Shown here: positions 33,766-64,000 of the stretch, piece after piece
Position numbering within the stretch: position 1 is the first letter of the stretch
Layout: each line of letters begins with the position of its first letter
Source: Symbiodinium sp. CCMP2592
Lineage: Eukaryota > Sar > Dinophyceae > Suessiales > Symbiodiniaceae
Assembly (NCBI GenBank): GCA_905221615.1
Contig: CAJNDT010006024.1
Location: 985,017 to 1,049,016 of the forward strand
Direction of reading: 5' to 3'
DNA length: 64,000 nt
The notes under the pieces: generated by a model
Databases searched by the model: none
What the model was told of the DNA's origin: nothing
Seen by the model: only the letters and a program-made list of their open reading frames with translations
Program-made: the position numbers and the translations under genes

Positions 33766-33818
33766 CTGCCAGCGAAGGGAGAGATTCCAATTGTTTTCAT
33801 TTAGTTTATTATTAGGTC

Positions 33819-36008: not shown

Positions 36009-36039
36009 TTGCGACTTGAAAGAAAGAGGGTGTCGGATT

Positions 36040-43009: not shown

Positions 43010-43340
43010 TCTGGCGAATTCTCAAAGGAACCCTTACGGCAAACCTTCTAGGAAACCGTATGAGGGCCCTTTTCGGAACCCTTGTGGTAGCCCTTCAAGT
43101 GACCCTTGTAGTAGCCCTTGCAGAAACTCCTGCACAGGGCTCCAAGGGAATCGTACTTGTATACTAACCCTCATAGACCTTAAACCCTAAACCCTGAACC
43201 CTTATAGACACCCCTAAAGGAGCACTTGAAGGAATCCGTCAAGGAACCCGCAAAAGGAACCCTACTATAGAAACCCTTCAAGGAGCCCTTAAAGGAGCCC
43301 TTCAAGGAACCCTTAAAAGGAACCCTATTGTAGAAACCCT
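43010..43340. repeat. degenerate array of aaggaaccctt words
   Basis: Units of 14-17 bases such as caaggagccctt-aaaggagccctt-caaggaaccctt. Same vocabulary as 25290-25410. A stretch of CCCTAAA words (43155-43200) interrupts it. Confidence 0.8.
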
Positions 43341-43470
43341 TGACCTTCAACCTTAAACCCTAAACCCTAAACCCCTAAACCCTAAACTCTAAACCCCTAA
43401 ACCTTAAACCCCTTAACCCTAAACTCTAAACCCCGAAACCTTGAATCCTAAACCCTAAACCCTTTGAAGG
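43335..43470. repeat. CCCTAAA-type telomere-like tract
   Basis: About 15 aaaccctaaacccc words with one- to two-base variants. Confidence 0.85.
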
Positions 43471-45639: not shown

Positions 45640-47130
45640 ACTTTGCACGGCATAGAAAATAGAAGTGATACTGTAGCATCCCCAAGGCCATGAACGCAGA
45701 TTTCGGATCAAGGTGGATAGTGGCTATGTTTAATTGGCTGTCGTTATGGTTTTTTACACACGCAACAATGTCATTGCTGTGGTGGGTGTTGCAGTCTCTC
45801 ACATGAATTGCTGTGTTCATTGGTTCATACAGCCATATATGGAATAAGCCTAAAGCAGTGTCATATAGTGTCAGTATACTTGTCAAAACCTTCAGTCTCC
45901 GCAGCACTGTACAATGATTCATGCGTGTCTGTCAAATTAGCAGTCAATAGCGACAAAGTATGAAATCGTGTTTCACGACGGTGTGTGTAGGCTTCGCAAT
46001 TGTTACTGCAAGTATAGTCTCCATTGCCTTAGGAATCCGATCTCCGTTTCTTTTCCCAGTCATGAAACTGCTACATGTTCTGTTCTTCTATATCGAGCTC
46101 AAAATGTCAAGTGTGGTTTTAATATTACCTCTCACAGTGTTGTTATCACATCTTGCAAATTGCCATTATTCCTGTTACAGTGGTTATCATACTTCACCAA
46201 TACCAGGCCATTTAGGACCATGTACCACCCGGCTTGTTTAATTTTTGCATCAAGTGTTACTGTGTCAATTACTGTTCTGATTGTTCATTCAGACTGCTTC
46301 GTATATTGTTCGGGAACCTTGCTTAATTGTAGCCAAGCATTATAAAGTCAATGAAGTACCTGCTGAGTCCTGTGTTTTATACATTCTGCTAGGTTGAGTA
46401 TAAACCTACCAGAGAACACCACGTGAATACGTACACTTGTGTTTCAAAGCACTTCTTGGTAGGATGATGGTTAGCCAAGTCACACATTTGCTTGCTTTTT
46501 ACCTGCTGAGAGTGGGTTGTTAGTCTTCCAAATCAAACATGATCCAACACGCCGGGGCTGCGTGTTACACGCTAGGTTGTATGTTGCAGTTAATTAGTTC
46601 GACTATAGTTTTTTCACGTCAGGTGACTTCGACATGTTTAATCCGAGTGCATTTCATCAAAAGTGCGTGCATCATGCAGGTAATATCCATTTTATTGTTC
46701 GCAGAATCGTTTTCGAAAGTCTGCACCTACTGTACCAAATGATGACAAGTTGACAACGATGTATGTCAGAATTTTGGTGCACATGGTAGTCTTTTGACTA
46801 CGGGCTCTTTGTTTTTTTGTAAGCACCAGTGCCACACCAAAAAAAATATACAACCACAACGACCAAAGCCCCCAATGCAAACACCAAGCAACATAAGTAG
46901 ATTCTTCTACATTTATCTTAAGAAGTGGGTGATTAAGCCAGCTAAGCTTGGTCGTGCAGCAATAGCTTTCCTACAATAAATTTTTGAATCTTAGACATGG
47001 AGTACAGCCTTGTATGTGATAAACAGAAAACCCATGAACTGGTGTTCCCACAGTAGTGTCTTCAAGCGGAGACCATGAATTACCTAGCTTCGTGTTGGAC
47101 CAACTAGTGAGCTTAATCAAGGATGCAAAT
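45640..47130. other. AT-rich unique DNA, no gene recognised
   Basis: Composition differs sharply from the flanks: AT-rich, almost free of telomere-type words and of AGAG. Several short open frames on both strands show no motif. It could be a different insertion or a distinct intergenic block. Confidence 0.45.
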
Positions 47131-47309
47131 ACCTTACCGGCTTGTCTGTAAAACGCCTCGCACGAGTACGTAAGATCTGCTCAATCGCAACTTTCGGTAA
47201 CAACGTATTGAAATATGTACTGTGGACAATGTTGCCGAAACCAGCATGTTCAACCATTCCCATAGATCTGGAGAAACTTCGGGAGCCGGAGCCGCAGTTT
47301 CGGGAATAA

Positions 47310-48300
47310 TGGAAGATGTTGGTAAAACCAACACTTTCCATGATCCCCCTTCAGACAAATCATGGAAATTGTTGGTCGCACCAACGTTTCCAGCAATTTC
47401 CATGAATTTGGAAAAACCTCGGGAGCCCGCACCATAGTTTCGGGAATCATGGAAATTGTTGGAAATGTTGGTAAAACCAACAATTTCCATGATTCCCCTC
47501 AGAGAAATCATGGAAATTGTTGGTTTTACCAACATTTCCAACAATTTCCATGAATTTGGAAAAACCTCGGGAGCCCGCGCCATAGTTTCGGGAATCATGG
47601 AAATTGTTGGAAATGTTGGTAAAACCAACAATTTCCATGCTCCCCTCAGAGAAATCATGGAAATTGTTGGTTTACCAACATTTCCAACAATTTCCATGAA
47701 TTTGGAAAAACCTCGGGAGCCCGCGCCATAGTTTCGGGAATCATGGAAATTGTTGGAAATGTTGGTAAAACCAACAATTTCCATGATTCCCCTCAGAGAA
47801 ATCATGGAAATTGTTGGTTTCACCAACATTTCCAACAATTTCCATGAATTTGGAAAAACCTCGGGAGCCCGCGCCATAGTTTCGGGAATCATGGAAATTG
47901 TTGGAAATGTTGGTAAAACCAACAATTTCCATGATTCCCCTCAGAGAAATCATGGAAATTGTTGGTTTTACCAACATTTCCAACAATTTCCATGAATTTG
48001 GAAAAACCTCGGGAGCCCGCGCCATAGTTTCGGGAATCATGGAAATTGTTGGAAATGTTGGTAAAACCAACAATTTCCATGATTCCCCTCAGAGAAATCA
48101 TGGAAATTGTTGGTTTTACCAACATTTCCAACAATTTCCATGAATTTGGAAAAACCTCGGGAGCCCGAGCCATAGTTTCGGGAATCATGGAAATTGTTGG
48201 AAATGTTGGTAAAACCAACAATTCCCATGATTCCCTACAGACAGATCATGGAAATTGTGGAAATTGTTGGCTTTTCCAACATTTCCAGCACGTTCCATCG
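47310..48300. repeat. ~148 bp satellite, about 6.5 units, with nested inverted repeats
   Basis: Each unit holds catggaaattgttgg...ccaacaatttccatg hairpins in both orders, plus a spacer (aaaacctcgggagcccgc). Units at 47740, 47888 and 48036 are almost identical; both ends diverge. Because the unit is self-complementary, both strands give near-identical spurious peptides. Not coding. Confidence 0.95.
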
Positions 48301-48454
48301 ATTTGGAGAAAGCTCGGGAGCAACAATACAGTATACGCTACACTTAGAAGCCCAGGGAGCCACAGTAAACGAAAACGTGCTTTCCCAGAGACGCCATGAC
48401 CAAGGAACACAAACAAATATTAGGGACAAGGTGTCTGGCTTGAACAGGACACAA

Positions 48455-48478
48455 CCTGGGTACCGGGGGGGGGGGGTA

Positions 48479-48515
<37 letters not shown>
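48455..48515. repeat. poly-G joined to (TA)n, junction type G
   Basis: aacctgggtacc, a run of G, then taccatatatata. It is the inverted relative of 45403-45470. Confidence 0.85.
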
Positions 48516-48517
<2 letters not shown>

Positions 48518-48639
48518 CTTAACTGAGTTATTTCTAATACGATGTCCACATTTGTATGTATATGTATATATTGTTATAGATATATATGCCGACGCTTTCT
48601 GTAGCGTGTGTCGGCCAGGGCGATGCCTTCTGTGCATAT

Positions 48640-48657
48640 ATCTATATATATACACAC

Positions 48658-48691
<34 letters not shown>

Positions 48692-48720
48692 GCTCACCCC
48701 CCCCCCGTTGACAGACCGCG
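48640..48720. repeat. (TA)n joined to poly-C, junction type G
   Basis: tatatatgctca, a run of ten C, then gttgacagaccgcgg. It shares tgacagacc with 27113-27195 and, inverted, with 29945-30145. Confidence 0.85.
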
Positions 48721-48799
48721 GGTCTAAAAAACACCGTGCACGACGATATTCTATGAAGCAAAACCTTTACATGAGGTACATAGTATAGCACCAGACGTG

Positions 48800-50450
48800 C
48801 GGCACATGAGTTACGTAACAGTCTTGTGGTAGTATCGGTATTAGGGTGAGTATTATTATTAATATTAGTACTATTGTTTGCTGTAAGTATACGTATCAAT
48901 ATTGCCAACTATAAATTAGTGTTAGTGCTCATGTTCGTGTTAGAGTTAGCGCTAGTGCCAGTGTCAATGTCAGTAATACAGCACCACTGCTACGAGTAGT
49001 ATCAGTATCAGTCTTAATGCTGGGTTTAACAGCAGCTTATATTCGCAGAAGTGCTAGTATTAGTATCAATATTAGAACTAGTTAGTTTGGATATGTTAGT
49101 ATATTGATAGTCTCGTATATTAGCAGATGAGTATATCAGTACATCAATGTATTCGAACAGTAAAATATTTGCATACTTGTATACTAGTATATTTTACATG
49201 TTAGTACAACTGGTGCATGAATACACTACTATACTGCTGTACTAGCTTACTAGTATATTGACATACCAGTATATTCGAACGTTAGCATATTAGTGTACGA
49301 GTATGTGTACTATATGACTGTTTTATCTAATCATTTATAAGTATATCAGTATGTTGGCATATTGGTATACGAACTTGTCATGTCGGTATTCTTGCATAGT
49401 GCAGTAGCCGTATATGAGTACAGTCACATATTCGTGTAGTATACTCATACAACAACGAGAGGTATATTGATACATTGGTATATGGGCATATGCCTATGCC
49501 AAAGCATTAATACATGAATGCACTGACGTATATATCTGTATCTTAAGATAGTGGTATGTATTTTATGTACATTAGTATATGCAGGTGTCTATTAGTAATG
49601 ATATTAGTCATCATATCAATATGAATATACTATTGGTGTTCGTAGCAGTATTAATGTCAATATTATTAGAAATAGGACTATTTATACTCGTAATAGCCAT
49701 AATATGAGTGTTCATGCTGGTAATACTAGTTGCATTCTTGAATATTCAGCAGATTATCAAAGTCCGTACTAGTGTTGGTGATAGCATCACTGTTAACGCA
49801 CAAGAGTTTACGTACTCGTATTCGTAGGAGTATCAATAGCTATGTAAATATTGATGTTAGTATAAATTTTGTGTGAAGTATTAGCAGTAGTGTTAGCTGT
49901 ATTTTATGTACATTAGTATAAGCAGGTGTCCATTAGTAATGATATTAGTTTTCATATCAATATGAATATACTATTGGTATTCGTAGCAGTATTAATGTCA
50001 ATATTATTAGAAATAGGACTATTTATACTCGTAATAGCCATAATATGGGTGTTCATGCTGGTAATACTAGTGGCATTCTTGAATATTCAGCAGATTATCA
50101 AAGTCCGTATTAGTGTTGGTGATAGCACTACTGTTAACGCACAAGAGTTTACGTATTCGTATTCGTAGGAGTATCAATAGCTATGTAAATATTGAGGTTA
50201 GTATAAATTTTGTGTTAAGTATTAGCAGTAGTGTTAGCGTTAGTACTATAATATTATTGATGATATACATTCGAAAGAATGTTTGTAGTATATTACTCTT
50301 GATCACGTGAAATTCTAACAGTTGAATACATGAGTGAGTTAAAGGATTTGTATTTTAATATGGTGGTATGCATGTTTATGTACATTAGTACATACAGGTG
50401 TGTGTTAGTATTGGTATTAATATACATTATTATCAATATGAATATGGTTA
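48800..50450. repeat. AT-rich tract of degenerate ATTAGT words
   Basis: Words such as agtattagtat and tattagtgtac dominate. This is the reverse-complement vocabulary of 27830-29815, so the two tracts are inverted relatives at the level of composition, although not aligned base by base. It ends abruptly at ~50450, where the retroelement block begins. Confidence 0.85.
49561..50242. repeat. 341 bp tandem duplication within the ATTAGT tract
   Basis: 49561-49901 and 49902-50242 are nearly identical (ttttatgtacattagtata start; shared caatattattagaaatagg). Few substitutions separate them, so the duplication is recent compared with the tract. Confidence 0.9.
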
Positions 50451-51136
50451 TTGCGTGGGGGATTGATCTCGACTTGGTTGCTGCTCTCCCCACCAGAGCT
50501 GTAATGAACGTAGGTGTGGCTGGCTAGCACTCTCCACAGACTGGACCCTGTCTCTCTCTCGTACTTCCACACGTGCGATCCTATGCAGGCAGAACCGGCG
50601 GCCGTTCCTTTTGCACTCACTGCCGGCGGCGGTTCGTCTGTGCAACGGGATAGCTCTGATTGCTCAGGCTAGAAGACACATATAGCACTTAGCTATGGGC
50701 ATTGACTTGAGCCAAACGTTGCGTTGGCGGTCACATAGAAAGGTAAAGACGAGGGATGCGTAGCATGCCCCCTAGAGTCGAGGGCCGCGTAGCGTGCCCC
50801 CTTCTCTTGCACTTTACACGGTCTTGCTCACAGCTCTTATAGTGACACCTTAGAACTTGACAAGGCATCGCAGTCCGTTAGCACCCCCCATGAGTTGCGT
50901 CTCCGACGCTGCTCACCCGGAAGATGGCACGATAGGACAACAGAAAATGTTCCGCCGCAACGTTGACATTGAAAAATCAGAGCTTTGCATCCCAATTAGA
51001 AACGTTGTGACACTCATCTACGTCAGTAACGATCCCCTGAAATGACAAACGAATCAGGCGTCACCGAAGAAAGAAGCATTCGCGATGGCATTCCACGGGC
51101 GAAGCTCAGAGGTCACGAACTGATAGGCGATGAAGA
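50450..51136 (-). other. 3' flank of the retroelement, possible LTR region
   Basis: Unique, GC-balanced DNA between the AT-rich tract and the end of the last retroelement ORF. In minus-strand sense it contains purine runs before TG (catggggggtgctaacgg near 50890; aagagaaggggg near 50797) that could serve as a polypurine tract. It also has a short direct repeat, cgtagc(a/g)tgccccct, at 50756-50802. A 3' LTR is expected here, but its partner would lie beyond the right edge of the window, so it cannot be confirmed. Confidence 0.35.
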
Positions 51137-53293
51137 TCAGGCGTTGTCTCGCCACCATCTTCGCGTTGACGTAGGATCGCGGTCCCAGGGCCGGAGGTTC
51201 TCCTCTGGATACTGGTTCCTTGGCTTTCCTTTGTCCTTGCCTTTGTTTCGGCCTTTGGCGGCGATGTAGTCGTGGTAGGAATTGGTGTTCCAGCCACCAT
51301 GTTGCTCGCCTCCGGTTCTTCCACGCCCTTTTGACGGTCCCTTGGATGAAGAAGCGCTTTCACGTTCCTCCGTAGTGACAGGCGTGTCCAGGATGGAAGT
51401 ACCACCTGGAGGAAGATAGTCAGCGGCCGAAATGTGGTGTAGGGCTTCCGTACGCCTTGTCGTCGGGTTTTGCTGTCTCTCAGTCTTGGATCTGTTCAAC
51501 CTGTCCATGAAATGCGCAGGCATCTGAACGCTGTGGTCCACTAGCAAGGCGATGGTCTGGACTGACTGATCAGAATGAGTCAGCAGAATACCGACGGGGT
51601 CGATGTACAAGAAGTCCACCGGTCCAGTTGGCGTTGGTCGTAGCACTGAGAATTGTTGGTGTCCCGTCACCATTGGGATCACCTCGCATAGGACGTTCAG
51701 GCAACAAAAGTGCATTGCCTTTACATCTTCATCCCTGTCGCTCTTCAAATAAGTAGTAGGGCTGAAGTTGTCCCTGCCAATTCCCATCATGTTGGCTCCG
51801 CGTACAAGTAAAGAAAGCATCTGGTTCGTCCGGAAGCGCTTCAAGGTGTAAGTCCCGTTGGGATCATACTGTTTGAGGTTCTCAGGTTCCTTCGCAAAGC
51901 GAATGATCTCCTCATCAGTCACGTCCCTGCTGACACCCGTTTCCTTGTCCACTGCTGCCAAAGATCCCCACTTTCCAAGCACATCATAGCGTTGGCCCAG
52001 TGCGAAACTTTCCCTCATCTGAAACAACGGCATAGTCGCCCACTTTGCGAATCCTGACCAAGATTTGTAGATGGATCTGCACACCACGTATGCCATGTAC
52101 GACAGAGCGGTCATGTTCGCGTCAATGCAATGGGCATTTCGCTTTCCAGAATAGTAAGATGGCTGCATGGCGGTACGTGCAAGTTGTAGTTCAGGATCGA
52201 TGTTCAAAGACTGGCCGGTAAGGAAGACGGGACGACGTTCCTGTGCGATTGCTTCCGGAACTGCGTCATCAAAGTCCTCTTCAGGCTCGACGTCCATTTC
52301 TTCATCAGGTTCCTGTTCTGGATCGTCTTCCGCGACAACAGATGGTTCTGGGATTTCTTCAGGTTCCGCAACGGTCTCTACCTCCATGGCTTCCTGCTCC
52401 TCTTCGGGCGCCTCAGGCAGTGCGGCTGCTGCGGCTTCCATTGTCTGAGCAATGAAGTCACTGGGGATCTCCGTAGGAGTATCCCGTTGTGGAGAACCTT
52501 GATAATATCCGCTTGAAATAAACTGTGACCAGCAAGACGTGCATCGGGAGAAACATGCTGGAACAATGTTGTAGCATGCCGGGCATACCCTCATTCTCCT
52601 TCCATCCTCGTCTCTGCGTAGGTCTTCGGGTCGCCAATTCTTGATGACAAACTTGATTCCCTTGTCCATGTAGTGATGCCGAACCGTGTTCTCCCTGTGG
52701 GACTCCAATACAGTTGTGAGGTCACGAATGATCTGCTCCTTGCTTGTGTCGTGGGGTCCAGGAGGCATCTCGCAAAGCAATTCCATGATCTTGCTCGGCG
52801 TTCGGTATCTCTCAAACTCGGGAAGCAACGGTGATGCATTGTAGTCCAACACCAGCTCTTTCTCCAACCTTTCATCGTAGATCTTTTCCACCAGAGCGAA
52901 AGAGTGTGTATCTCGAGGGTCAGGGACGCAAAACCATACCTCCTTGACGAAATGGAAAGGTATCGTTCGACCAACGATCATGATGCCGCTGTCTGTGATA
53001 CGTCCATCCTCTCGTGCAAGATCTTGCGATGGGACATGAAGAACCGCCAATGGCATGTGCTTGGCGTCTCGTCCGTGTACTCGCATCTTGGTCGTTGCGT
53101 TCCGGTGATCGAACGGCGCAAACACCCCCCAATAGCTGTGGAGTCTGCCGCCTTGGTTGCCTCGGAATTGGCGTCGATGGTCGAAGTCCCCGTCGGGGTC
53201 CTCCGAACCAGGCATGATGCCTTGCGTGACAATGGAATCCAAGTTGCGGCATGCTGTAGCGTGGAACGCACCTCCAAGACGTTGCAAGAGGGT
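51137..53293 (-). CDS. 716-codon ORF: Tpt1/KptA-like start, zinc ribbon, acidic and basic tail
   Basis: Same frame as the 1809-codon ORF upstream, separated from it by a single TAA at 53296-53294. There is no ATG near the start; the first usable codon is TTG. Residues 7-28 read AFHATACRNLDSIVTQGIMP, and ~80-118 read LAVLHVPSQDL...DSGIMIVGRTIPFHFVKEVW. This order (HxT with a GL/I-x-P turn, then a strand, then an S/DxGxxI segment and IP...V) is that of the catalytic lobe of Tpt1/KptA RNA 2'-phosphotransferases, an ADP-ribosyltransferase-like fold. Residues 235-252 (CPAC...CTSC) form a zinc ribbon. An Asp/Glu-rich stretch (280-350), a mixed region of unknown type (350-640) and a Gly/Lys/Arg tail follow. 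Either it is the C-terminal part of one ~2,530-codon protein, or it is an orphaned fragment. Confidence 0.6.
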   Translation of the reverse strand, partial: TLLQRLGGAFHATACRNLDSIVTQGIMPGSEDPDGDFDHRRQFRGNQGGRLHSYWGVFAPFDHRNATTKMRVHGRDAKHMPLAVLHVPSQDLAREDGRITDSGIMIVGRTIPFHFVKEVWFCVPDPRDTHSFALVEKIYDERLEKELVLDYNASPLLPEFERYRTPSKIMELLCEMPPGPHDTSKEQIIRDLTTVLESHRENTVRHHYMDKGIKFVIKNWRPEDLRRDEDGRRMRVCPACYNIVPACFSRCTSCWSQFISSGYYQGSPQRDTPTEIPSDFIAQTMEAAAAALPEAPEEEQEAMEVETVAEPEEIPEPSVVAEDDPEQEPDEEMDVEPEEDFDDAVPEAIAQERRPVFLTGQSLNIDPELQLARTAMQPSYYSGKRNAHCIDANMTALSYMAYVVCRSIYKSWSGFAKWATMPLFQMRESFALGQRYDVLGKWGSLAAVDKETGVSRDVTDEEIIRFAKEPENLKQYDPNGTYTLKRFRTNQMLSLLVRGANMMGIGRDNFSPTTYLKSDRDEDVKAMHFCCLNVLCEVIPMVTGHQQFSVLRPTPTGPVDFLYIDPVGILLTHSDQSVQTIALLVDHSVQMPAHFMDRLNRSKTERQQNPTTRRTEALHHISAADYLPPGGTSILDTPVTTEERESASSSKGPSKGRGRTGGEQHGGWNTNSYHDYIAAKGRNKGKDKGKPRNQYPEENLRPWDRDPTSTRRWWRDNA

Positions 53294-56200
53294 TTATAAA
53301 GACAGCGGCCCCGGCACCGGCGCGGAGCGGAGACCGGAGCCGGCCGGACGCCCGGACGGCCCCCCCCGCGGAGATCCATCGGCGGACGATATTGCGAACC
53401 TGTTCTTGTCCAACTGAAGCAAGTTGTTCTGGGGATCTGAATGCGCAGAGTGACCACTCGTAGCCCGAACGGCCCATGGCTTCACCCAGCCGTGGCATAG
53501 GTTCAGGTACCTCTGGCCATGCCGGCAATGGTCGTTGCTCTGGATCTCCGCGATCTGGTCCCGAACTGATACCAACATGTTCGAACCTGCTGATCCAAGA
53601 ACTTCCGTGCCGGGGTCCTTCACTCTCACACCCAGGAACTGCAACCGAATCTTGGCCTTGTTGCGTTTCGTTGCTGCAATCATGTTCCCCTGGAACAATA
53701 GCTGAAGTCTTTCATTGTACACTCTCTTCTTCTGTTGGTCATCGGTCCTTGAGACCCCTTCGGTGATGCGTCTGCTTTCATGGGTCCATAGTGGCTCATG
53801 CCTCACCAAGTCTTCGATCAGAACCCACCCTCCTTCATCACATTTGATGACACTGTTGAATGCCACCTGGCACCTGTTGTCAAGCCACTCCGAGCCTGGG
53901 CGCCTGGCGATTCTGTGGCGCAAGTCAGACTGGATGCATGATAGCGCCCAATCCGCATTCAACCTGCGCTGACGGGTGATGTTGCGAAGGACAACTTCGT
54001 TCACGATGTCCCACCGATTGTTGATGAAGCTTGCACCCTTGGTTGGGATCAGGTCGAGAATTCCGCCCCGGATTGGCCTTCCGCCGCCGATGGATTCATA
54101 GCCTGGATTGGTGTAGCTGTTGGTGTTCTCGTCGTACACATAGCTAGGACGGTCTCCCCGTTGGGGTAGGCGTCGGTCGCGATGGTCCGAAAGCTGTTCA
54201 ATGATGTCCACCACTCGCTGGCTATTCTCTGGTCCCGAATCCTGCAGTGGTACGCCACAAGCATCATTTAGGCCCCGACGATTCTCCACATCCGTGCAGA
54301 GATTGTGTTTGTTCTCATAACGGATCAAGACCACATCACCCCGAACTGCTTCGCCTCCGCGTCGCGGTCGGGCTTTGGCCTTGGGTCGTCGGTCCGAGGA
54401 TGCAACACTCACATGATCTGTGGTGTCAACGTCCATTGGTTCAGCCTCTTGTGAAGGTACTCGACGTGGATATCGAAGAAGACTTTCCTTGATGATCTGG
54501 ACGCTTCGAAGTACCAGGTCCCGAGTTGCAGCATTCTCCGTGCAATTTGACAGAGTGTGTAGGTCACTGCCACAAGCAACACAAAATGTGACGCGATCGC
54601 TTCCGACTGACATCTCGCCCTGAGCGAGTACGCCAACATAGTCCTGAAGCTGCGTGACAACTCCTTCACGAATTGCATGCCTGGGATCAGGGCCTTCTGC
54701 ACCTTGCTCTTCTTCGGGTTGCGCATCCACATCCACATCCTGTGCAGGTATTGGTGGAGCAACTGAGAACCCTGGATCGTCCGTGACGTTGTCAGCGGCC
54801 TGTGTCTCGTCGGTTCTCGCAATCTCTACAGGGTAGATATCACCATCGACGATCACTGTGAAATCAATCACGAGGTCAGCGGACATGGTGTTGACGATCT
54901 CAGCGACTGCTTCATTCTTCTTGGGCGGTGTCCTTTTGCGCGGGGAGTCAACCGTGATCAGCTCGATGGCTTCGGCCGACGCGTAGCGGAAGAATGATCT
55001 TTCGATTCCTCTCGCGCACGCATTTGCTCCCTCAAGGCCACCCCAATTCGGAAAATGACCTGGGTGTCTCATTGCAATTGTAAGAAGCCCGAGCGCCAGC
55101 TCCACTGTGTCACCCAGGAGCTCTTCCTTGGGCAAGACGGACCCTCTGTAGCATTCTTGGCGCTCTTCCGGAGTCAAAAGCATCCTCATGAAACCAGCAT
55201 AAGCGCAGTTCCCGGCGTCGTAGTAGCAGATGTAGCATGTCTTGCCTTCTGAGTCGTACCCTCTGTCCCACGCCAACTGTTTGGCCTTTCCCCATGCCGC
55301 GTACTCGATGGCCTGACTGGCTGTGATTCGGAGACCACCGTAGTGAGAAACCGTCTTGCCGATGTCTTCATAGACCATCTCCGCACAAACTTTGAGGAAC
55401 TCCTTGATGTCCACACGAGGATCCACGAATTGAAGCCTCAGGTCATAAAGGTGCTTTGCGCAAGCCAAGGTGTACTTCTGGGACGCGATCAAGTCATTGA
55501 AGGAGCTGATTTGATGCTGCATCTTCAAAGCTGAAGTATGCGCGCACACAATGCAGTGCCCAGGATACCCGTTTCCGGTGGGTTTGAAGAAGGCTTGTGC
55601 GTAGCACTCAGCCAACTTCATTCCTTCACATCCAGAGCAATAGAACGTTCTCCCTTTGACATAACCGGTGTTCGGGGTCGCATAGGTGTCGATCCGGAAC
55701 CAGTAGTGCCTGTTGTCGTAGTAGGCTTCGGGGACGGTCATGGCGATGTCAAAGTCCTGCCAGGTGACTGTGGACGACTCAGCGACCGTGTCACCCTGGG
55801 CACCCGACCTGATCTGTTGCTGCTGTTCCCCCGTAAACCATGTCTGCGAGATCTTGGTGGTCGTCTTGACTTCACTCTTGTCCTCCCAAATCTCGACGAG
55901 CGACGGGTGAGCAACTAAGTCGGTTCTGACTGTCTCATCCCATGAGCGAACTTTCGATGCCTCAACAAAGCACGTAGATACCATCTTCTCGCAAAACAGC
56001 TGCTTCTCATAGATAGCTAGGCCCAATTTGAACCTGACCCGATTGTCTGGCGGTGGTACCTTCTCGACTGACAAAGTGTGCACGCCAGACGACGCATGTT
56101 TCGCCTGACTGTACATTCTTGACCAAAACGAATATCCATGAATCACCACACATGCTCGGGCCCGCAACTCCAGTTCAATGTACATTCCCAGCGCGTGGAA

Positions 56201-58723
56201 ACCGTTGAACATAGAAGCTTTCTGTCGAAGGTAATTGCTGGCTGCTCCTACGAACCGTAAGTCGTGGTTGATGTTGACAATTGGAGGGCGCGTGGTACGC
56301 GTCCCTGCCGCAATGATGGGGTCAACGTACGTGGCTTTGAGCTGCCGCTGCAAATCAGCACGAATCGCTGCTCCGTCTCCGACCTCACTCATCGGAAATG
56401 ATATGTTCTCGATGAGGATCGCCTGGAGAGACAGATGGTAGTGCAACGTGACGGTTGCAAGCTGCTCTTCAGTCAAGCCATCCAATGTCTCATTCACAGA
56501 TTCCAACGATCCCTTTGTGACTTGGAAGTTGTAGTTGGCACCTGCGGTGATCGACGGTCTCACAATGTAGATCTCACTCCATCCATGCATGACGAGATTT
56601 TCTCTCACTGTATGCGATGATCCTCTGGTCCTTGCGACCATATCAAAGTCTTGGACGAGGATTGTGCATTGAGAGCGCATAGTCGCGGCATCAGGCTTGC
56701 CACCCATACCCAAACTATTGCGAAATCCGTTCAGCGTGTTCATGGTATTGATCCTTGCTTCTGCCGGAATTTCATCGTTTTCGACAAGATCGCTGTCTGC
56801 CTCGATCATCACAGCCGAGGTAAGCATTGGAGGAGAAGGAAGATGCACGCACGACACCAATGCCAATGCATGGTACAGCCGCGAATACATCCGTAACCAC
56901 ATCTTCGTGCTCAGCTTCACGTAGACCTTCAGGTTGAGACCCTTGTCGTCACTTTGAGAGACGGAACGAATCCTTGCCACGTAGGTCACCAGTCTTCTGA
57001 CGTAATGCTGAATCGGTGTGGTCCCCACGTCGTGGTTGGCCACGAACTTTGGCGTCTCATCAATGGTAGGTGGGTACTCGTCTTGATCACGTGTCGTCGC
57101 CAGCAAGCTCGAGCGACAGCCCTTTTCATCGATGTTGACGTAATGGTACCAACTTTCCTGAGCGCCAGCGGGGATTGGAGCTTCCTCCCATGTCGGTTGC
57201 GATGGTTCCTCTTCCGGTTGCGAAGTCGGTTGTTGTGGAGGAGGTGCCGCAGAAGATGACGACGCCGATGCCGTTGCCTCGTCCGTCCTTGCCCTCTTTG
57301 GTCCGTTGCTAGGGGTGGCTCGAGGTCCGGCAGCGGATCCTTGCGATTGTTCCGGCGTTCTTCCATGCTCAGGGTGCACGATTCCTTCCGGTTCGAGGTT
57401 GCTTGCCGTAGGCATCGCCACCCTCCCCGTTGAATACACCCAGCTAGGATGCCGTTGAAGATTGGGCGGAAATAGGCCATCATCTTGTAGAAGCGGTCTT
57501 GGTGCCTCCATCTGTTGGAATTCTGCTTCCCATATGCTCAACGTGTCGCGTTTGGTAGAGCAGTCGACCACATATCCAGATTCAACTCCGCATTGATTCC
57601 AGGTGTAGCTACGGAACGCATCCGGCAATTGGAAACCGTTCCTGTCTTGATCTGCACATACAGCATCCACGTGGTGCTTGAGGAAAGAATACGTGGTGTA
57701 GTCGGAATCAGGGAGCACGTCGTTGGACCATCTGTAATGCGGGTGTCCAGTTTCTGGATCAACCCATGATACGTAGGAATGAAGCACGTGGAGACAGACA
57801 CTGAACGCCTGGAGCGAGTTCATCGCAAAGGCGAGCTGGTGTCCCATGCCTTGAGGCATTGTGCGCATCATCATGGCCAGCTGGTGCACGTTGAGTGGCG
57901 TGGCGCCATCGTTGTTCGCAGCACACTCCTGGTTGTAGGTCCGTAGTCCATATCCAGTGTGTTTCGCGAACATGTACATCAGCTTGCACACCCTACATAA
58001 CGTAGGCTCCGCCAACAGGTCTGATTGGTCAGGTGCTCTACCCGACATAGGCAACTTGTGGTAGTAGTCCTGATTCACCGTATACCATTGTTGAATTCTC
58101 GTGTCTGTCACAGTCTGGTAGTGCGTCTCAACGGAGTTGATGAGAACGGCGAGGTTGTAGTACCCGTCCGCACTGACGATGTTCCTTGTTGCAGTGTTCA
58201 AGTCGAACCGAACTTGCTTTCGTTCTTGTTCCAGTTGAACCACAGCCAATTTTGCATCATCGCGGATCACTTCCTCATCCACCATGAACCTGGTGATGGC
58301 ATTGTACTTCCCCTCGTGGTCAGCAACAATGTGTTTGAGACCTCCACCAAACTTAGTGACCATGGCGAGTATCTCCCCATAAGGTTTGTCCATGTACTCC
58401 TCAGGAGCAGCAAGCAAGCAAGCTTTGAGGATTTCTCGGACTCGAATGGAAAGATCCCCTCCTGACGACAGATTTGCACACGTGAACAGCAAGACCAACG
58501 GAGGTGCTTTGAAAGCTGCCCATGTGCGAATGAGATCATTGTCGACCACTTTGGCTTTCGTAATCTTCGGCGGGAGCGAGACGCTCTGCGACGCATCCCC
58601 AGAATACATCTCCAGGAACTTGTGGAACTTCAGAAACGTTCGCATCATCCCACCAGGCGGGAAAACTTCCTCGTGGTCCACTCCATCGAAGGCCAGCTCG
58701 TAGGCATTGTAGCTTTCAGCCAT
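53294..58723 (-). CDS. 1809-codon retroelement ORF with a Gag-type zinc knuckle, 3' of pol
   Basis: ATG at 58723 sits in a strong context (GAGCCATGG). No family recognised for residues 1-1350. They contain a helical front, a Ser/Pro/Gln-rich linker (455-520, with basic GPKRARTDE), long alpha/beta-looking stretches, Cys pairs at 1029-1032 (CSGC) and 1057-1060 (CIVC) and a basic patch, PRKRTPPKKN (1261-1270). Residues 1381-1394 (CVACGSDLHTLSNC) fit CX2CX4HX4C exactly, the retroviral/copia Gag zinc knuckle. The C-terminus (about 1590-1775) has DEGGWVLIEDLVRHEPLW and WAVRATSGHSAHSD. These resemble the DGYVPVxxLL and IRAxQGHS motifs of the N-terminal lobe of Tpt1/KptA. The last ~30 codons are GC-rich and low in complexity, then TAA. 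Codon use is even and without CTCT bias. A nucleic-acid-binding structural or accessory protein is likely; this is inference. Confidence 0.7.
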   Translation of the reverse strand: MAESYNAYELAFDGVDHEEVFPPGGMMRTFLKFHKFLEMYSGDASQSVSLPPKITKAKVVDNDLIRTWAAFKAPPLVLLFTCANLSSGGDLSIRVREILKACLLAAPEEYMDKPYGEILAMVTKFGGGLKHIVADHEGKYNAITRFMVDEEVIRDDAKLAVVQLEQERKQVRFDLNTATRNIVSADGYYNLAVLINSVETHYQTVTDTRIQQWYTVNQDYYHKLPMSGRAPDQSDLLAEPTLCRVCKLMYMFAKHTGYGLRTYNQECAANNDGATPLNVHQLAMMMRTMPQGMGHQLAFAMNSLQAFSVCLHVLHSYVSWVDPETGHPHYRWSNDVLPDSDYTTYSFLKHHVDAVCADQDRNGFQLPDAFRSYTWNQCGVESGYVVDCSTKRDTLSIWEAEFQQMEAPRPLLQDDGLFPPNLQRHPSWVYSTGRVAMPTASNLEPEGIVHPEHGRTPEQSQGSAAGPRATPSNGPKRARTDEATASASSSSAAPPPQQPTSQPEEEPSQPTWEEAPIPAGAQESWYHYVNIDEKGCRSSLLATTRDQDEYPPTIDETPKFVANHDVGTTPIQHYVRRLVTYVARIRSVSQSDDKGLNLKVYVKLSTKMWLRMYSRLYHALALVSCVHLPSPPMLTSAVMIEADSDLVENDEIPAEARINTMNTLNGFRNSLGMGGKPDAATMRSQCTILVQDFDMVARTRGSSHTVRENLVMHGWSEIYIVRPSITAGANYNFQVTKGSLESVNETLDGLTEEQLATVTLHYHLSLQAILIENISFPMSEVGDGAAIRADLQRQLKATYVDPIIAAGTRTTRPPIVNINHDLRFVGAASNYLRQKASMFNGFHALGMYIELELRARACVVIHGYSFWSRMYSQAKHASSGVHTLSVEKVPPPDNRVRFKLGLAIYEKQLFCEKMVSTCFVEASKVRSWDETVRTDLVAHPSLVEIWEDKSEVKTTTKISQTWFTGEQQQQIRSGAQGDTVAESSTVTWQDFDIAMTVPEAYYDNRHYWFRIDTYATPNTGYVKGRTFYCSGCEGMKLAECYAQAFFKPTGNGYPGHCIVCAHTSALKMQHQISSFNDLIASQKYTLACAKHLYDLRLQFVDPRVDIKEFLKVCAEMVYEDIGKTVSHYGGLRITASQAIEYAAWGKAKQLAWDRGYDSEGKTCYICYYDAGNCAYAGFMRMLLTPEERQECYRGSVLPKEELLGDTVELALGLLTIAMRHPGHFPNWGGLEGANACARGIERSFFRYASAEAIELITVDSPRKRTPPKKNEAVAEIVNTMSADLVIDFTVIVDGDIYPVEIARTDETQAADNVTDDPGFSVAPPIPAQDVDVDAQPEEEQGAEGPDPRHAIREGVVTQLQDYVGVLAQGEMSVGSDRVTFCVACGSDLHTLSNCTENAATRDLVLRSVQIIKESLLRYPRRVPSQEAEPMDVDTTDHVSVASSDRRPKAKARPRRGGEAVRGDVVLIRYENKHNLCTDVENRRGLNDACGVPLQDSGPENSQRVVDIIEQLSDHRDRRLPQRGDRPSYVYDENTNSYTNPGYESIGGGRPIRGGILDLIPTKGASFINNRWDIVNEVVLRNITRQRRLNADWALSCIQSDLRHRIARRPGSEWLDNRCQVAFNSVIKCDEGGWVLIEDLVRHEPLWTHESRRITEGVSRTDDQQKKRVYNERLQLLFQGNMIAATKRNKAKIRLQFLGVRVKDPGTEVLGSAGSNMLVSVRDQIAEIQSNDHCRHGQRYLNLCHGWVKPWAVRATSGHSAHSDPQNNLLQLDKNRFAISSADGSPRGGPSGRPAGSGLRSAPVPGPLSL

Positions 58724-58835
58724 GGCTCGGGTTTCGGTCCTTCCTCCGTAGGAGGGAAGTCCCTACACCCTACTCGACTTCACGGTTCCGGGTTCTCCGT
58801 AAGAGGCACCCTTCCCCGATCCGTCTGGGCAGACC
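58724..58835 (-). promoter_or_regulatory. 112 base gap between retroelement ORFs, with hairpin before the ATG
   Basis: Between the stop of the 646-codon ORF and the ATG of the 1809-codon ORF. A stem (cttccctcc-tac-ggaggaag in sense) lies ~15 bases before the ATG. There are several AG dinucleotides after pyrimidine-poor sequence. It could be a spliced-leader trans-splicing site or a reinitiation region; the sequence alone does not decide. Confidence 0.3.
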
Positions 58836-60776
58836 TTAGTTGTTCCTTAGTTGGGGCTGTCTAATAGCCCCTTCATCAGCGTCTACACACTGATGTTGCT
58901 GCCATGCAATGTCCTCAGATTCATGTGCAACATGACTGACACTGACATGAGCTCGAACAAGGCTGCGAACATTTCTCGCAATTGACCGCCATGAAACATC
59001 AATGCGCTGCGACAAACTGTTCTTCGAATCATGGTCCAAGCAATCATTCAGTCTCATCACCAAACGGTCCGCTTCAGGCATGTTAGAGAACATGATCCTG
59101 CGTCCACCCCCATCGCCATCAGCACCAACATGATCATCAACCTTAACCTTCGTCACCTTGCCACTTGAAACAAGAGCATGCAACTCTGGCCAAGACCAAC
59201 ATGAGCATGAAGAAGGCATGTCAAGCGAAAAATAGACGTCGGAAAATTCCGCACACTTCTTCAGCAGGCGTTTGAGAGATTTCAAGACACTTCTGAAAAC
59301 CTTGTATTTCCCACCAGAACGTTTTTCACCCCCCACGCAAGCCCCTTCACTACTTCCAGGACCAGCACCTGATCGCAAAAGCGATGCTACAAACAGCACA
59401 GGTGTGCGCAGGTCGTTCCGGCACGCATCCTTCATTGTACCGATAAGGCTGTCCTCATCGGCTTTGGAGCTAATCAGCTCTTTGCAAGTTATGCGAGAGC
59501 AACCCTTAGTGAACTTAGGTACGGCGTAGCCGTTACCCAAGCCACAAAGGTCAACAATCATGCGGTCTGGCTTCCGTCCACCAGCCTTCGACGGCATGGC
59601 TACCAATCTCCCATCGCCAGTTGCCTGAAATTTCAAGGCTTTAAGCAACCTTCTGGAGATTTGGCTAGTCAACCCGCATTTATCAGATCGATCCTTAGCG
59701 TCCGAATCAGTCATGTGCAAATGTTTGGACGAGCACACATCAGACGACTTAGGATGCAACGCCACGTTTGCGGCAATGTACTCCCATTCATCCTTGCAGT
59801 AGCCGAGCTCAACGGCGGTTCCGGGAGATACAGGATCCCGAAAGTTATAACGTTGCCCGTGAGTGCATCCTTGGATCTTGATGCTCTTCCACATGGCATC
59901 TTCCTGAAGTCCCTTGTACTGCTTGGTTTCCTGGACTGGTACTCGAGGAGGTACTTCGATGATGATTTGGAACCCCCATGATACCGCTCTGCGCGCAATT
60001 CTTTGGACGACCTCCCCCCATGGGTAGTCTGTCCGCAATTTGGCCCTTTCAGGGTTGTCAGCGATTTTCCGACTCAGCCACGAATTCTTGCCTAACACCC
60101 CTGCACCAATGAAGATCACGGAGTTAGGGTTGCTTTTCCTTGCTTCCACCACATCGAAGAGGTAGGCGCACATGGCGTCGTCAACTTCTCGCCCCATACT
60201 CAGAACATTTACTTGCAGCCCAGGGTCGTAGTGAGAATCGGGAGCATGCTGGGCGATGCAATCCTTGCCTGGAGCATACTCATTCCACCAGTTCTCCTCA
60301 TCGACTCCTATCGATGTCCATACCGTCACTGCCTTTGGAGCATCTTTGATAGTGATACGGTACTTCCACCGGCTGTAAGGATTCTTGTAAGCATGGACCA
60401 ACCTTCCATCGTGGTCGATGAATTGGATCACCAGACCCTCCTTGGGCTTGTTCCTTTCCCGGCGCCAATTCCGCCTGACCACCGCTGAAGCCACCACCAC
60501 TTGCTCCATCCATATACCCTCTCGATTATCTCCCCTTCTTCTGCCGTCCCGCCCCGCATCAGCCATCATCGCTCCGTAAACACCCACCACGACCGACCCC
60601 CTTCTGCGCGACTCATCAGCCAAAATTGACAGAGTCGCCTTGACTTCTTTCGTCGGGACTGCTGGCCCCGTTTGCAACACCAAAACCAACTCCCCCTCGG
60701 CCTGCAATGTCTCAAAATCAACGCCTGGTACCCCCCATGGATGGCACGCGCCAGTGTGACAACCACCGCTCGCCAT
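58836..60776 (-). CDS. 646-codon retroelement ORF overlapping the end of pol
   Basis: ATG at 60776 lies 210 bases inside the pol frame. In the overlap this frame looks the more protein-like one (ATLSILADESRRRGSVVVGV), while the pol frame turns into Arg/Trp-rich text, so a frame switch from pol into this ORF is plausible. A module at residues ~218-380 reads SVIFIGAGVLGKNSW, VVQRIARRAVSWGFQIIIEV and IKIQGCTHGQRYNFRDP, then a Cys/His-rich KHLHM...CG segment. A second, shorter block at ~457-555 has the same order (TPVLFVASLLRSG, SLKRLLKKCAEFSDVYFSLD, VTKVKVDDHVG), suggesting an old internal duplication. The GC(x)HG(Q/L)R segment recalls a module I associate with other dinoflagellate retroelement polyproteins. 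Function unknown. Confidence 0.65.
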   Translation of the reverse strand: MASGGCHTGACHPWGVPGVDFETLQAEGELVLVLQTGPAVPTKEVKATLSILADESRRRGSVVVGVYGAMMADAGRDGRRRGDNREGIWMEQVVVASAVVRRNWRRERNKPKEGLVIQFIDHDGRLVHAYKNPYSRWKYRITIKDAPKAVTVWTSIGVDEENWWNEYAPGKDCIAQHAPDSHYDPGLQVNVLSMGREVDDAMCAYLFDVVEARKSNPNSVIFIGAGVLGKNSWLSRKIADNPERAKLRTDYPWGEVVQRIARRAVSWGFQIIIEVPPRVPVQETKQYKGLQEDAMWKSIKIQGCTHGQRYNFRDPVSPGTAVELGYCKDEWEYIAANVALHPKSSDVCSSKHLHMTDSDAKDRSDKCGLTSQISRRLLKALKFQATGDGRLVAMPSKAGGRKPDRMIVDLCGLGNGYAVPKFTKGCSRITCKELISSKADEDSLIGTMKDACRNDLRTPVLFVASLLRSGAGPGSSEGACVGGEKRSGGKYKVFRSVLKSLKRLLKKCAEFSDVYFSLDMPSSCSCWSWPELHALVSSGKVTKVKVDDHVGADGDGGGRRIMFSNMPEADRLVMRLNDCLDHDSKNSLSQRIDVSWRSIARNVRSLVRAHVSVSHVAHESEDIAWQQHQCVDADEGAIRQPQLRNN

Positions 60777-63700
60777 TTGGCGGGCAGGGCGCGCACATAA
60801 GACTGGCCTAGAGGCGGTTCAGGAATAGGCAAAAACGGCGGCGCAAGTACGTCCGCAATGGCAGCGGGGCGCAAATGCCCCCGCACGGGATGGTACTGAA
60901 ACACAGCACGCTCCACGTAGCGGTCGAACTTGCCCGGTGTGTCAAGGATAGCAGCACGATCCTCCATCTGGTGCCACTGCCCTTCACGAAGAATCCAAGT
61001 CGACCGAAGGTAACGACCAGGCGGCCACGCGGAAGGCGGCCCCCGCAACATGCGCGGGAACTTGACAACCAGGATGGGGTCCACACTGTCATGTTCTTGC
61101 AAGCCTTCCTTACTCGACAATCCAGCGCGATACAACACCTGAGGGAGGATCGGCGTCTGCGTGTAAGGAAAACAAGGCACCTCGCTCTGGAACGAGTAGT
61201 GCTGCTGACCCTTCTCATCTGTGCTTTGGGTATGAGTAGGGCGCATCAGATCCATAATCTCTTGGGAGCCGATGAAATCCGGCGGAAAGATGTTGATGAG
61301 CTGACACGCATGTGTCCAGGACACGGAATCCTTGAACGACTTGGTGTGTATGTCCGCGGACATCTTGGCAGTGACCTCATAGGCAAGAGAAACGTAACCC
61401 TCCTGAAAGATAGAATGCATCCATCCAATGCAGATACCGTGGGTACGTTCCAAGTGACGCATAGTCGGATTCTTGCCCGTGCGAATCACCCCGATCATGG
61501 TCTGGTTGTCGTCGTAGAAGACGAAGTTGGGGTCTTGCCCCCCAAGCTGCTTCCACAACGTGATAGCAGGCAATCCAAGACGTGACATGGCAAAGTCGGC
61601 CGCGACAATCTCGGCCTCAGGTGTGGAATGACTCAAGCACCCCTGCTTTTTGCTAAGTCCCGCCAAGGGAAATCTTGTGTGAGAACCTTGAATGTGCAAG
61701 TGAGCACCGGAGGTAGATTTCAAACTTTCTCCACAACCTGCATAGTCCGCATCGGCAAACAGCCCGATGGACGAGTCCTCCAAGGAGTTCCCGACCCATC
61801 CAATCATCATGTGATGTTTGGACTGGTGCACATAGGCCATGAGATGATGAAGAAGAGCATCTTCCTTCTTGGTCCATTTCGTGATCTTGCGTGCGAGATT
61901 GTTGATACTTCGCAGAAGATCGAAGCGGCAAATGCGCGCGGCATAAAGCAATTTCATGAGAATGCTGGCTGCCTGCGGAGCAAGTGCGCCGCGATTGGCC
62001 TCGTTGATTTCCTCTCCCTCGGGCGCCTTGGGAATAGGTGGAGGCGGAACGAGCCGACCATCCTTATCAACAGGCATGGTGTGTCCACACCACGTGCATC
62101 GATGGCTTTTACCTGACTGTGCCGGAGCACGAGCTGGGTGAGTCTTAGTCTCCTCAGCCGGACTCGGCGATGGTACCGTCTTGAATTTTGTCGGATCGAA
62201 CCCAGTCACGTCGCAGTACTTCTTGACTGTCATGTCCAGGTACGTCTCCATGTCGTAGGTAACGGTCTGCCCCTTCGTTTTGTCATGCAACGTTGCCTCG
62301 CCCTTGGAGATGCGACAACCCAGATACAAGCCCAGCGGCGTTTCTTCTTCCAATCGAAGTTCTTGGCGCAGCATGTTCCAACCCTTGGGTAGATTCTCTT
62401 TGGGTCCTGCCATCTTGAGATCATCCACGTAGATGACAAGTAAGAGCTTCATTTGCGGGTGGAAATACAATGATGGCCATTCATCACCAATTGGCTTGAA
62501 CCCTACTTTCTGTACCGCGGTGTGGCAATGTTGTTCCCACATGGTTCCTGCGTCAGGATGTCCATATAGAGCTTTGATCAGGCGGCATACCGGCCTACGG
62601 AACTTGTGCCGTTTCGCAGATGGGTGCCAGGCTTCATCAGGCAGTTCAACCCAACACGGAGTGCCCGACAATCTAGCCTGAATGTATGCTTGGATAGCAT
62701 CCGCCATCTGGACATCGTTGCCAGGAAGACATCCGTAATAATCTGCCCATCGTGAGGCTTCAAACGTAGCCGGGGAATTCCCCAAATCCTGAAACAATGC
62801 GGCTTCCATATTCTGGTCTTTGACCTGATCACCGAGTAGTACACCTCGCCCCTTGAACTTCCTGGCAGGATCGTCCTCTTTGCGCTGATAGTTCTTCTCG
62901 TAGATCAGTCCGTGTACTCGCGCCATATGTACTTTCTCACCTTTCTTCTTTGCCTCGGCGACGACGTCGTCATATTCACGCGTAGTTGAGAAGTCAAACA
63001 CTTCTTGGTCCCACAATCCTTTCCATTCTTTCATGAAAGCTTCCATGGCCTTGGGATTGTTGATCATCTCTTTGCGTGTGACGGGTCGAGTGACCATGGC
63101 ATTGAAGCACGATCCTCCTGCATGATTCTTTTCCCGATGTACGTTTCTGTGAGAAGTCGTACACGGCATAGAAGGAATCCAGTTATCATCCATGACCATA
63201 TGCGCCGGAACGGCCGGCACGACATCTGCCAAGAATTGTTCCTGTGTATATTGATCCACATAGGACTGTGCCCATGACCAACCATCGTCGTCGTCAACGG
63301 TCACGTTGAGTTGCAGATCAATTTCTTCACACGGAACAATCTTGGGAAAGATCATGTTGTCCAAAGTCTTGGTGACTATCTTCTTTCCTATCACAGCCTT
63401 CTTCCGGTCTTTCTTGGCAACTCGAGCTTTGTCTCGCTTTTCTTTCTTGTATGCTGCCTTCTTCTCCGTTTCGCTCATCTTCTTCCATGCTTCCGGAGAA
63501 TAAGAATGGATAGGTCGCCGTGTAGGAAGAGTTCGTCGACCATCACTTCGGATCTTGTACGGAACTCCCCTTTTGTCGATCTTGCAAGCTTCACCGTCAT
63601 CGGTAAGATATACAATGCCGTCTCCTTTCTTCCCCGTACTCCAATGTTCAATCTCCTCGGGAGCCAACTTCTTTTCTTTCAAGATCTTGATAATCTCTCC

Positions 63701-63823
63701 AGGTTCTTCGATGTCTCCTTCGGGGATGAGTCTACCGGTTGGACCGACTTCGCGGGGCGATCGCCGATCTTTCCCAGTGACCTTTGGTTCAGAAGAGGCG
63801 GTGCTGCACGTAGACCCAGCTCT
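60566..63823 (-). CDS. pol: Ty1/copia-type Pol: reverse transcriptase and RNase H, 5' part in another frame
   Basis: Open from a TGA at 63826-63824 down to 60566. Residues below count from 63682, a TTG that is not a convincing start. A Lys-rich linker (60-105) leads into the RT: MADAIQAYIQA (first Asp, 328), CRLIKALYGHPDAGTMWEQH (367-386), then LLVIYVDDLKMAG with the YVDD catalytic box at 418-421. A CTWCGH pair sits between RT and RNase H. RNase H follows: GLFADADYAGC (D644), SHSTPEAEIVAADFAMS (E691), FVFYDDNQTMIGVI (D724/725) and ADIHTKSF, all in copia order. A 250-residue C-terminal extension has no known domain; its last ~70 codons overlap the next ORF. Role: copying of the element RNA in cytoplasmic particles. 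All catalytic residues that I can see are present, but the frame break upstream makes an intact polyprotein doubtful. Confidence 0.9.
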   Translation of the reverse strand, partial: RAGSTCSTASSEPKVTGKDRRSPREVGPTGRLIPEGDIEEPGEIIKILKEKKLAPEEIEHWSTGKKGDGIVYLTDDGEACKIDKRGVPYKIRSDGRRTLPTRRPIHSYSPEAWKKMSETEKKAAYKKEKRDKARVAKKDRKKAVIGKKIVTKTLDNMIFPKIVPCEEIDLQLNVTVDDDDGWSWAQSYVDQYTQEQFLADVVPAVPAHMVMDDNWIPSMPCTTSHRNVHREKNHAGGSCFNAMVTRPVTRKEMINNPKAMEAFMKEWKGLWDQEVFDFSTTREYDDVVAEAKKKGEKVHMARVHGLIYEKNYQRKEDDPARKFKGRGVLLGDQVKDQNMEAALFQDLGNSPATFEASRWADYYGCLPGNDVQMADAIQAYIQARLSGTPCWVELPDEAWHPSAKRHKFRRPVCRLIKALYGHPDAGTMWEQHCHTAVQKVGFKPIGDEWPSLYFHPQMKLLLVIYVDDLKMAGPKENLPKGWNMLRQELRLEEETPLGLYLGCRISKGEATLHDKTKGQTVTYDMETYLDMTVKKYCDVTGFDPTKFKTVPSPSPAEETKTHPARAPAQSGKSHRCTWCGHTMPVDKDGRLVPPPPIPKAPEGEEINEANRGALAPQAASILMKLLYAARICRFDLLRSINNLARKITKWTKKEDALLHHLMAYVHQSKHHMMIGWVGNSLEDSSIGLFADADYAGCGESLKSTSGAHLHIQGSHTRFPLAGLSKKQGCLSHSTPEAEIVAADFAMSRLGLPAITLWKQLGGQDPNFVFYDDNQTMIGVIRTGKNPTMRHLERTHGICIGWMHSIFQEGYVSLAYEVTAKMSADIHTKSFKDSVSWTHACQLINIFPPDFIGSQEIMDLMRPTHTQSTDEKGQQHYSFQSEVPCFPYTQTPILPQVLYRAGLSSKEGLQEHDSVDPILVVKFPRMLRGPPSAWPPGRYLRSTWILREGQWHQMEDRAAILDTPGKFDRYVERAVFQYHPVRGHLRPAAIADVLAPPFLPIPEPPLGQSYVRALPAKWRAVVVTLARAIHGGYQALILRHCRPRGSWFWCCKRGQQSRRKKSRRLCQFWLMSRAEGGRSWWVFTER

Positions 63824-64000
63824 TCATCTAGTTCTTCGAGTCTTTTGTCTCCTATGGCATCAATAGCTTCATGTTCTGCTGACTTGAAGACTTCGCCGAG
63901 CGGCTCCGTCTCAATGTCAGATGGATCTATGTCCTGTAAGTCAGGATCTTCTCCGGGATCCGGTGGAGGAAGAAGTCCGCTTGGATCATCGTCATCCCCG
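63686..64000 (-). CDS. upstream part of the pol polyprotein, different frame, cut by the window edge
   Basis: Open from the right edge to a TGA near 63686, one frame away from the RT frame. It reads an acidic, Pro-rich linker (DDDDPSGLLPPPDPGEDPD, then KRLEELDEELGLRAAPPLL), typical of the stretch between integrase and RT in copia Pol. The RT frame picks up naturally at VTGKDRRSPREVGPTGRLIP. The two coding senses therefore swap somewhere in 63770-63823. Gag, protease and integrase would lie beyond the edge. Confidence 0.6.

Follow-up and report, generated by a model that had tools for sequence, protein, structure and literature searches.

Layout of the Element

The 64,000-nucleotide stretch of Symbiodinium sp. 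CCMP2592 that we analyze here (contig CAJNDT010006024.1, positions 985,017 to 1,049,016; referred to below as the window) carries near its right-hand edge four long minus-strand open reading frames (ORFs), a copia-type pol followed by ORF2, ORF3a and ORF3b (Table 1), that probably represent one no longer intact member of a lineage of large Ty1/copia-type long terminal repeat (LTR) elements in dinoflagellates. One codon-position GC pattern is common to all four frames, and in base-shuffled versions of the 7.6 kb ORF3 stretch the longest ORF averages 167 aa and never exceeds 268 aa (200 trials). An earlier sequence-only reading had listed co-directional ORFs of 646, 1809 and 716 codons 3' of pol, together with a 112-base gap and a single in-frame stop (TAA); the stop-to-stop ORF list bears these numbers out, and both gap and stop are present in the sequence. 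As frames the three extra ORFs stand, but they amount to two genes, since the 1809- and 716-codon frames form one protein in P0005, a relative of 2490 aa that is 74% identical to the window and spans both without interruption (ORF3b: 74% over 713 residues, P0005 1781-2490). ORF3a and ORF3b are therefore treated as one gene, ORF3.

The pol assignment is based on a Pfam RVT_2 match at 62303-62599 (E 1.2e-8, 35.3 bits against a cut-off of 31.6), and RNase H presumably occupies about 61289-61807, as judged from its motif. Similarity to the relative P0010 can be followed by eye beyond the pol frame, in another frame, up to the window edge at 64000, and the tblastn extents of the relatives end at 63775. 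On this comparison pol appears not to start at 63823 but to be frame-shifted near 63.75 kb, and the element appears to extend beyond the right edge of the window. Upstream of the reverse transcriptase (RT) the relatives show the copia order, that is, a zinc-finger gag-like part in which CCCH fingers precede an aspartic protease (E 2.5e-6); next comes an integrase core that is matched only weakly in P0037 (E 0.017) and was recognized by eye in P0017. No LTR pair was found among the direct repeats of 46000-64000, and the 5' end of the element falls outside the window. At the other end of pol, homology with the relatives stops near 60703 and that of ORF2 begins near 60461 in a different frame, the overlap of the two frames appearing incidental.

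Within ORF3 a GC-rich insert interrupts the gene together with the TAA. The insert of about 90 nt is also absent from the relatives P0006 and P0007 and preserves the reading frame; an intron was considered and rejected, its 3' edge having no AG. Because pol is frame-shifted near 63.75 kb and a stop lies within the KptA-like domain of ORF3, the window element is, as far as can be judged from its sequence, a broken copy.

Table 1. Features of the element in the window
Feature	Positions	Strand	Basis or remark
Upstream polyprotein continuation (linker before RT), other frame	63770-64000	minus	three-frame translation against P0010, by eye
pol frame	60566-63823	minus	stop-to-stop, 1085 aa
pol, homologous part	60704-63769	minus	copia-type RT, RNase H and conserved C-terminal extension; Pfam, homologs, motifs
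YVDD motif of RT	62420-62431	minus	motif position
ORF2 frame	58836-60818	minus	stop-to-stop, 660 aa; 646 counted from first ATG
ORF2, homologous part	58836-60461	minus	blast, local profile matches, alignment
First methyltransferase-like copy in ORF2	59619-60236, boundaries approximate	minus	alignment by eye
Second methyltransferase-like copy in ORF2	58899-59576	minus	alignment A5, family model
ORF3a frame	53294-58762	minus	stop-to-stop, 1822 aa; 1809 counted from ATG at 58723
ORF3a	53294-58723	minus	ATG 58723 to TAA 53294-53296; start agrees with N-terminus of P0005
CCHC zinc knuckle CVACGSDLHTLSNC	54542-54583	minus	pattern match
Tpt1/KptA-like domain, interrupted by stop	52844-53965, outer limits approximate	minus	profile, alignment, model
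LRH motif	53915-53923	minus	motif position
RATSGHS motif	53447-53467	minus	motif position
Insert of ∼90 nt, GC-rich (79%), with TAA	53294-53386	minus	P0005 has three codons there
HxT motif	53255-53263	minus	motif position
Arg following HxT	53144-53146	minus	motif position
ORF3b frame	51137-53293	minus	stop-to-stop, 718 aa; C-terminal part of ORF3

Linkage of pol and the Extra ORFs in Relatives

A protein search with the 1822-aa ORF3a frame (threshold E <= 0.001) returned three proteins, P0005, P0006 (2505 aa) and P0007 (1482 aa), pol being present in one of them. P0006, a predicted protein of Symbiodinium sp. KB8 (the named sources of the relatives are this strain and S. microadriaticum), unites in a single chain an RNase H that is 86% identical to that of the window, ORF2 (43%) and ORF3 (42%); the same three parts are joined in P0008. 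The RNase H-ORF2 part of P0006, used next as a query that is biased to pol and ORF2 and not to ORF3, yielded 58 proteins. Domains were called with local profiles iterated inside a set of 62 proteins, so that the E-values are optimistic, and these profiles gave zero matches in shuffled proteins or pol segments.

At least one extra domain accompanies pol in the same predicted protein in 40 of the 58 relatives, and in 39 of these 40 the order pol, ORF2, O3a, O3b, O3c, O3d, KptA is kept, the exception being P0058. Three or more extra domains are found in 19 of the 40, and 8 reach the KptA-like domain. The remaining 18 relatives have pol alone; 17 of them stop at most 322 aa beyond it, and P0053 runs on for ∼860 aa without a profile match. 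The pol and ORF2 ranges of P0059-P0062, taken from the local profiles, overlap or almost touch. When 60 relatives were compared by tblastn with the whole window all 114 matches fell in 51146-63775 and none elsewhere. Distances in the extra region also follow those of RNase H, with Mantel r values of 0.91 for ORF2 (n=30), 0.93 for O3a (n=25), 0.79 for O3b (n=14) and 0.82 for O3c (n=8); the observed r was reached in 0 of 2000 permutations in each of the first three cases and in 6 of 2000 for O3c. The extra region is the faster-changing one, with mean distances of 0.62-0.76 versus 0.29-0.42 for RNase H.

That 39 of the 40 proteins, very divergent ones among them, keep one order bears out the sequence-only proposal that the extra ORFs are part of a copia-like element, and the comparisons indicate that they are not chance neighbors of pol. 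The lineage also includes predicted proteins of great length; P0050 is one, and its cluster has 1086 member sequences. A protein search with P0050 1100-3440 returned P0050 alone, distant relatives probably having too few exact words in common, and searches for the same element in viral contigs (A3, A4) and genome contigs (A3) gave pattern matches with zero confirmed relatives.

Domains of ORF2 and ORF3

The family model of ORF2 has a C5-cytosine-methyltransferase-like fold, and the 50 structure rows for this fold comprise 49 named methyltransferases and 1 putative one. At the sequence level no methylase match for the family was obtained in Pfam, nor any PDB profile match, and it is from the model that we place ORF2 in a family with a predicted fold of this kind. 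In the model a Pro-Cys pair comes after the third of the listed strands (61-66); we take this pair to be motif IV of C5-cytosine methyltransferases, and a conserved Glu to be motif VI. In alignment A5 P69-C70 and E120 are conserved throughout with the sole exception of the window (11 of 12 rows): its second ORF2 copy has SLLRSG at 59367-59384, where Pro-Cys is gone, and SLDMP at 59214-59228, where Glu is replaced by Asp. The first ORF2 copy has GAGVLG at 60090-60107, at the place where second-copy relatives show PCTGGS. More broadly, PCTGG is found in 31 of 40 ORF2-domain proteins and Pro-Cys is absent from 9, the window included. The methyltransferase-like domain looks active in most relatives and degenerate in the window copy. 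The distant pol proteins P0058-P0062 (38-42% identical to the window) match the methyltransferase-like profile as well. In P0058 the domain precedes pol, and for this reason it may predate ORF3 or be the more mobile of the two.

ORF3 contains a CCHC knuckle, and of the 10 relatives having that segment 8 show the pattern in the corresponding position. It also contains a domain that resembles the Tpt1/KptA RNA 2'-phosphotransferases. The Arg-His-Arg-Arg tetrad and the HxT motif (equivalence assigned by order) are invariant across the 6 rows of alignment A2, which are only 29-48% identical to the first row; in a 10-row alignment LRH is present in all 10 and the other tetrad and HxT residues wherever the protein is not truncated or out of frame. 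The Tpt1/KptA family profile scores 13.8 bits on the window, below the curated cut-off of 26, and 16.8 bits on P0050; among 17 relatives it gives E <= 0.01 for two, the lowest value being 0.0047. The top structure matches of the modeled domain are Tpt1/KptA, in a model of low pLDDT (51). O3a, O3b, O3c and the C-terminal part of ORF3 are without an assigned fold. A PDB profile search with alignment A3 gave a single match, a gap junction protein at E 0.26; one with alignment A6 gave ATP-synthase stalk matches and weak CCHC/nucleocapsid matches at E 0.04-0.15; and P0001-P0004 and P0007 had no NCBIfam match at E <= 0.1. On motif conservation we regard the ORF3 domain as Tpt1/KptA-like, with the residues needed for catalysis retained and activity presumed.

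Other Features of the Window

Outside the element an island of 58-60% GC at 31823-36038 has long ORFs on both strands, one of which (minus strand, 33819-36038, 739 aa) matches DUF2293 weakly, below cut-off (E 0.0014). It is followed at 36086-37551 by a tandem repeat of a 268 bp unit (5.5 copies, 98% identity). A 148 bp unit, for the most part palindromic within itself, occurs in six copies at 47310-48258, and two low-GC stretches 20 kb apart, 28604-29168 and 48832-49422, show inverted similarity (71% over 596 bp). A 60-copy ATATATT array and several degenerate CCCTAAA-like repeat patches lie at 625-1043, 3456-3842, 39922-40113 and 43196-43460.

Interpretation

We consider it fairly probable that the locus is a damaged member of a dinoflagellate lineage of large Ty1/copia-type LTR elements, and that the 3' part of this lineage is an accessory module passed on by inheritance and working along the following lines. 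Tpt1 enzymes remove internal 2'-phosphates in an NAD+-dependent reaction. ORF3 would act within the ribonucleoprotein particle of the element, on nucleic acid, with the CCHC knuckle binding element RNA and the Tpt1-like domain using NAD+ to remove (or ADP-ribosylate) RNA phosphates, which would leave genomic RNA, once repaired, or a cleaved tRNA primer ready to be copied by RT; the methyltransferase-like domain would mark or bind the cDNA. Virus-encoded KptA is thought, in the part of the source available, to repair cleaved RNA (PMC9503650), and Hemiviruses, which are of copia type, are described in the available text as priming from part of a tRNA with the 3'-OH in the anticodon arm (PMC8515867, PMC1181622). 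Cleaning of RNA ends or junctions by a Tpt1-like activity would fit both uses, RNA repair and tRNA priming. For the DNA side, self-methylation of cDNA has been proposed, according to the portion consulted, for the DNMTs that SymbioLINE and SymbioDIRS elements carry (PMC5890265). With its pol frameshift and the stop in the KptA-like domain, the window copy itself is probably unable to perform the mechanism.

An alternative that we think unlikely, though not negligibly so, is that the role of the 3' module is chiefly structural: it would form another packaging or Gag-like layer, in which the methyltransferase- and KptA-like folds are non-catalytic scaffolds for nucleic-acid binding. The CCHC knuckle, the absence of Pro-Cys from 9 of 40 ORF2-domain proteins including that of the window, the lack of an assigned fold for most of ORF3 and the much faster evolution of the extra region than of pol would all suit a structural role; however, the tetrad and HxT are invariant in alignment A2 despite its low identities, and PCTGG is kept in the majority of ORF2-domain proteins. 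We give much less weight to the notion that the window copy is functional, the TAA being read through or the insert being an unusual intron. The ∼7.6 kb do contain just one stop, the sequence on either side of it is 74% identical to P0005 and the frame is kept across the insert, but none of P0005, P0006 and P0007 has the insert, its 3' edge lacks AG and pol is frame-shifted as well.

Still less probable is a separate gene or element adjoining a copia remnant, to which the frame change between pol and ORF2, the ATG of ORF3's own and the occurrence of ORF3 without pol in P0005 and P0007 might point. That reading was rejected on the conserved order, which is accompanied by divergence congruent with RNase H and by the single-protein arrangement of P0006 and P0008. 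Least probable of all is that the extra ORFs encode an env-like entry protein. Their location after pol is that of env in Sirevirus, as given in the part of PMC8515867 available, but not one 19-residue segment in the four window ORFs reaches 1.6 on the Kyte-Doolittle scale (P0005 has one, at 1.67), in agreement with the earlier remark that nothing in them resembles a membrane fusion protein, and the domains that could be assigned are nucleic-acid enzymes or binders. With no membrane segment in the window ORFs they are therefore not env, and this reading was rejected on hydropathy.

Returning to the inherited module, a bolder version, which we advance tentatively and would not call the likelier outcome, is that of an old giant dinoflagellate copia lineage with its own modification kit, consisting of a cryptic C5-methyltransferase fold and an active NAD+-dependent Tpt1-type enzyme; the latter might act on 2'-phosphates, either in a half-tRNA primer or in the RNA of the element, and so link retrotransposition with the chemistry of RNA splicing and repair. 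The coding capacity of such elements would exceed 15 kb, provided that P0017 is typical in its upstream part and the window in its 3' part. In a library of open-licence full texts we found no description of the pol-ORF2-ORF3 architecture, so that within these bounds the earlier suggestion of an undescribed element architecture holds, and a giant copia lineage with a nucleic-acid-modifying 3' module is, as far as we have searched, apparently undescribed. If many copia elements carry a methyltransferase fold and a Tpt1-like enzyme, methyltransferase capture would be wider than thought, and some retroelements would themselves supply the processing of RNA ends or junctions, a capacity that we found described, in the part of the source at hand, only for RNA viruses and phages (PMC9503650). 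Predicted proteins of great length, P0050 among them, can also be given a name through this lineage.

Comparison with Known Systems

The element resembles Ty1/copia (Pseudoviridae) in its RVT_2-type RT and RNase H and, through its relatives, in the succession of zinc-finger gag-like part, protease, weak integrase core and RT. It differs in having more than 9 kb of coding sequence past pol, and its relatives have CCCH instead of CCHC fingers ahead of the protease. Pseudoviridae genomes range, in the available part of PMC8515867, from 4 to more than 9 kb and encode no more than gag, pol and env. A Sirevirus-like env carrier has a membrane protein after pol, which the hydropathy of the window ORFs does not suggest.

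Like SymbioLINE-Dnmt and SymbioDIRS-Dnmt3, the element is a Symbiodinium retroelement with a domain of cytosine-methyltransferase type; those, as far as the accessible portion of PMC5890265 describes them, are LINE and DIRS elements with recognizable DNMTs, whereas here the likeness is at the level of fold and the domain follows a copia-type pol. The same portion names Copia as the most abundant Symbiodinium retrotransposons and as being without any DNMT domain.

With the Tpt1/KptA RNA 2'-phosphotransferases the window domain shares tetrad and HxT motif and, on a model of low pLDDT, apparently also the ADP-ribosyltransferase-like fold, but it is embedded in a retroelement protein, has long insertions and scores below the family cut-off. 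KptA domains of RNA viruses and phages offer another comparison, some of those in RNA viruses likewise lying within the polyprotein of a replicon (PMC9503650, in part), but their carriers are positive-strand RNA viruses and phages, and the words 'retroelement' and 'retrotransposon' have 0 occurrences in the available text of that paper. As to position, the LTR elements of bdelloid rotifers offer a parallel, with family-conserved enzymes other than env at the ORF3 site; in the portion of PMC5408684 available these are a GDSL esterase and a DEDDy exonuclease in small ORFs, whereas the element described here has a protein of ∼2500 aa with other domains.
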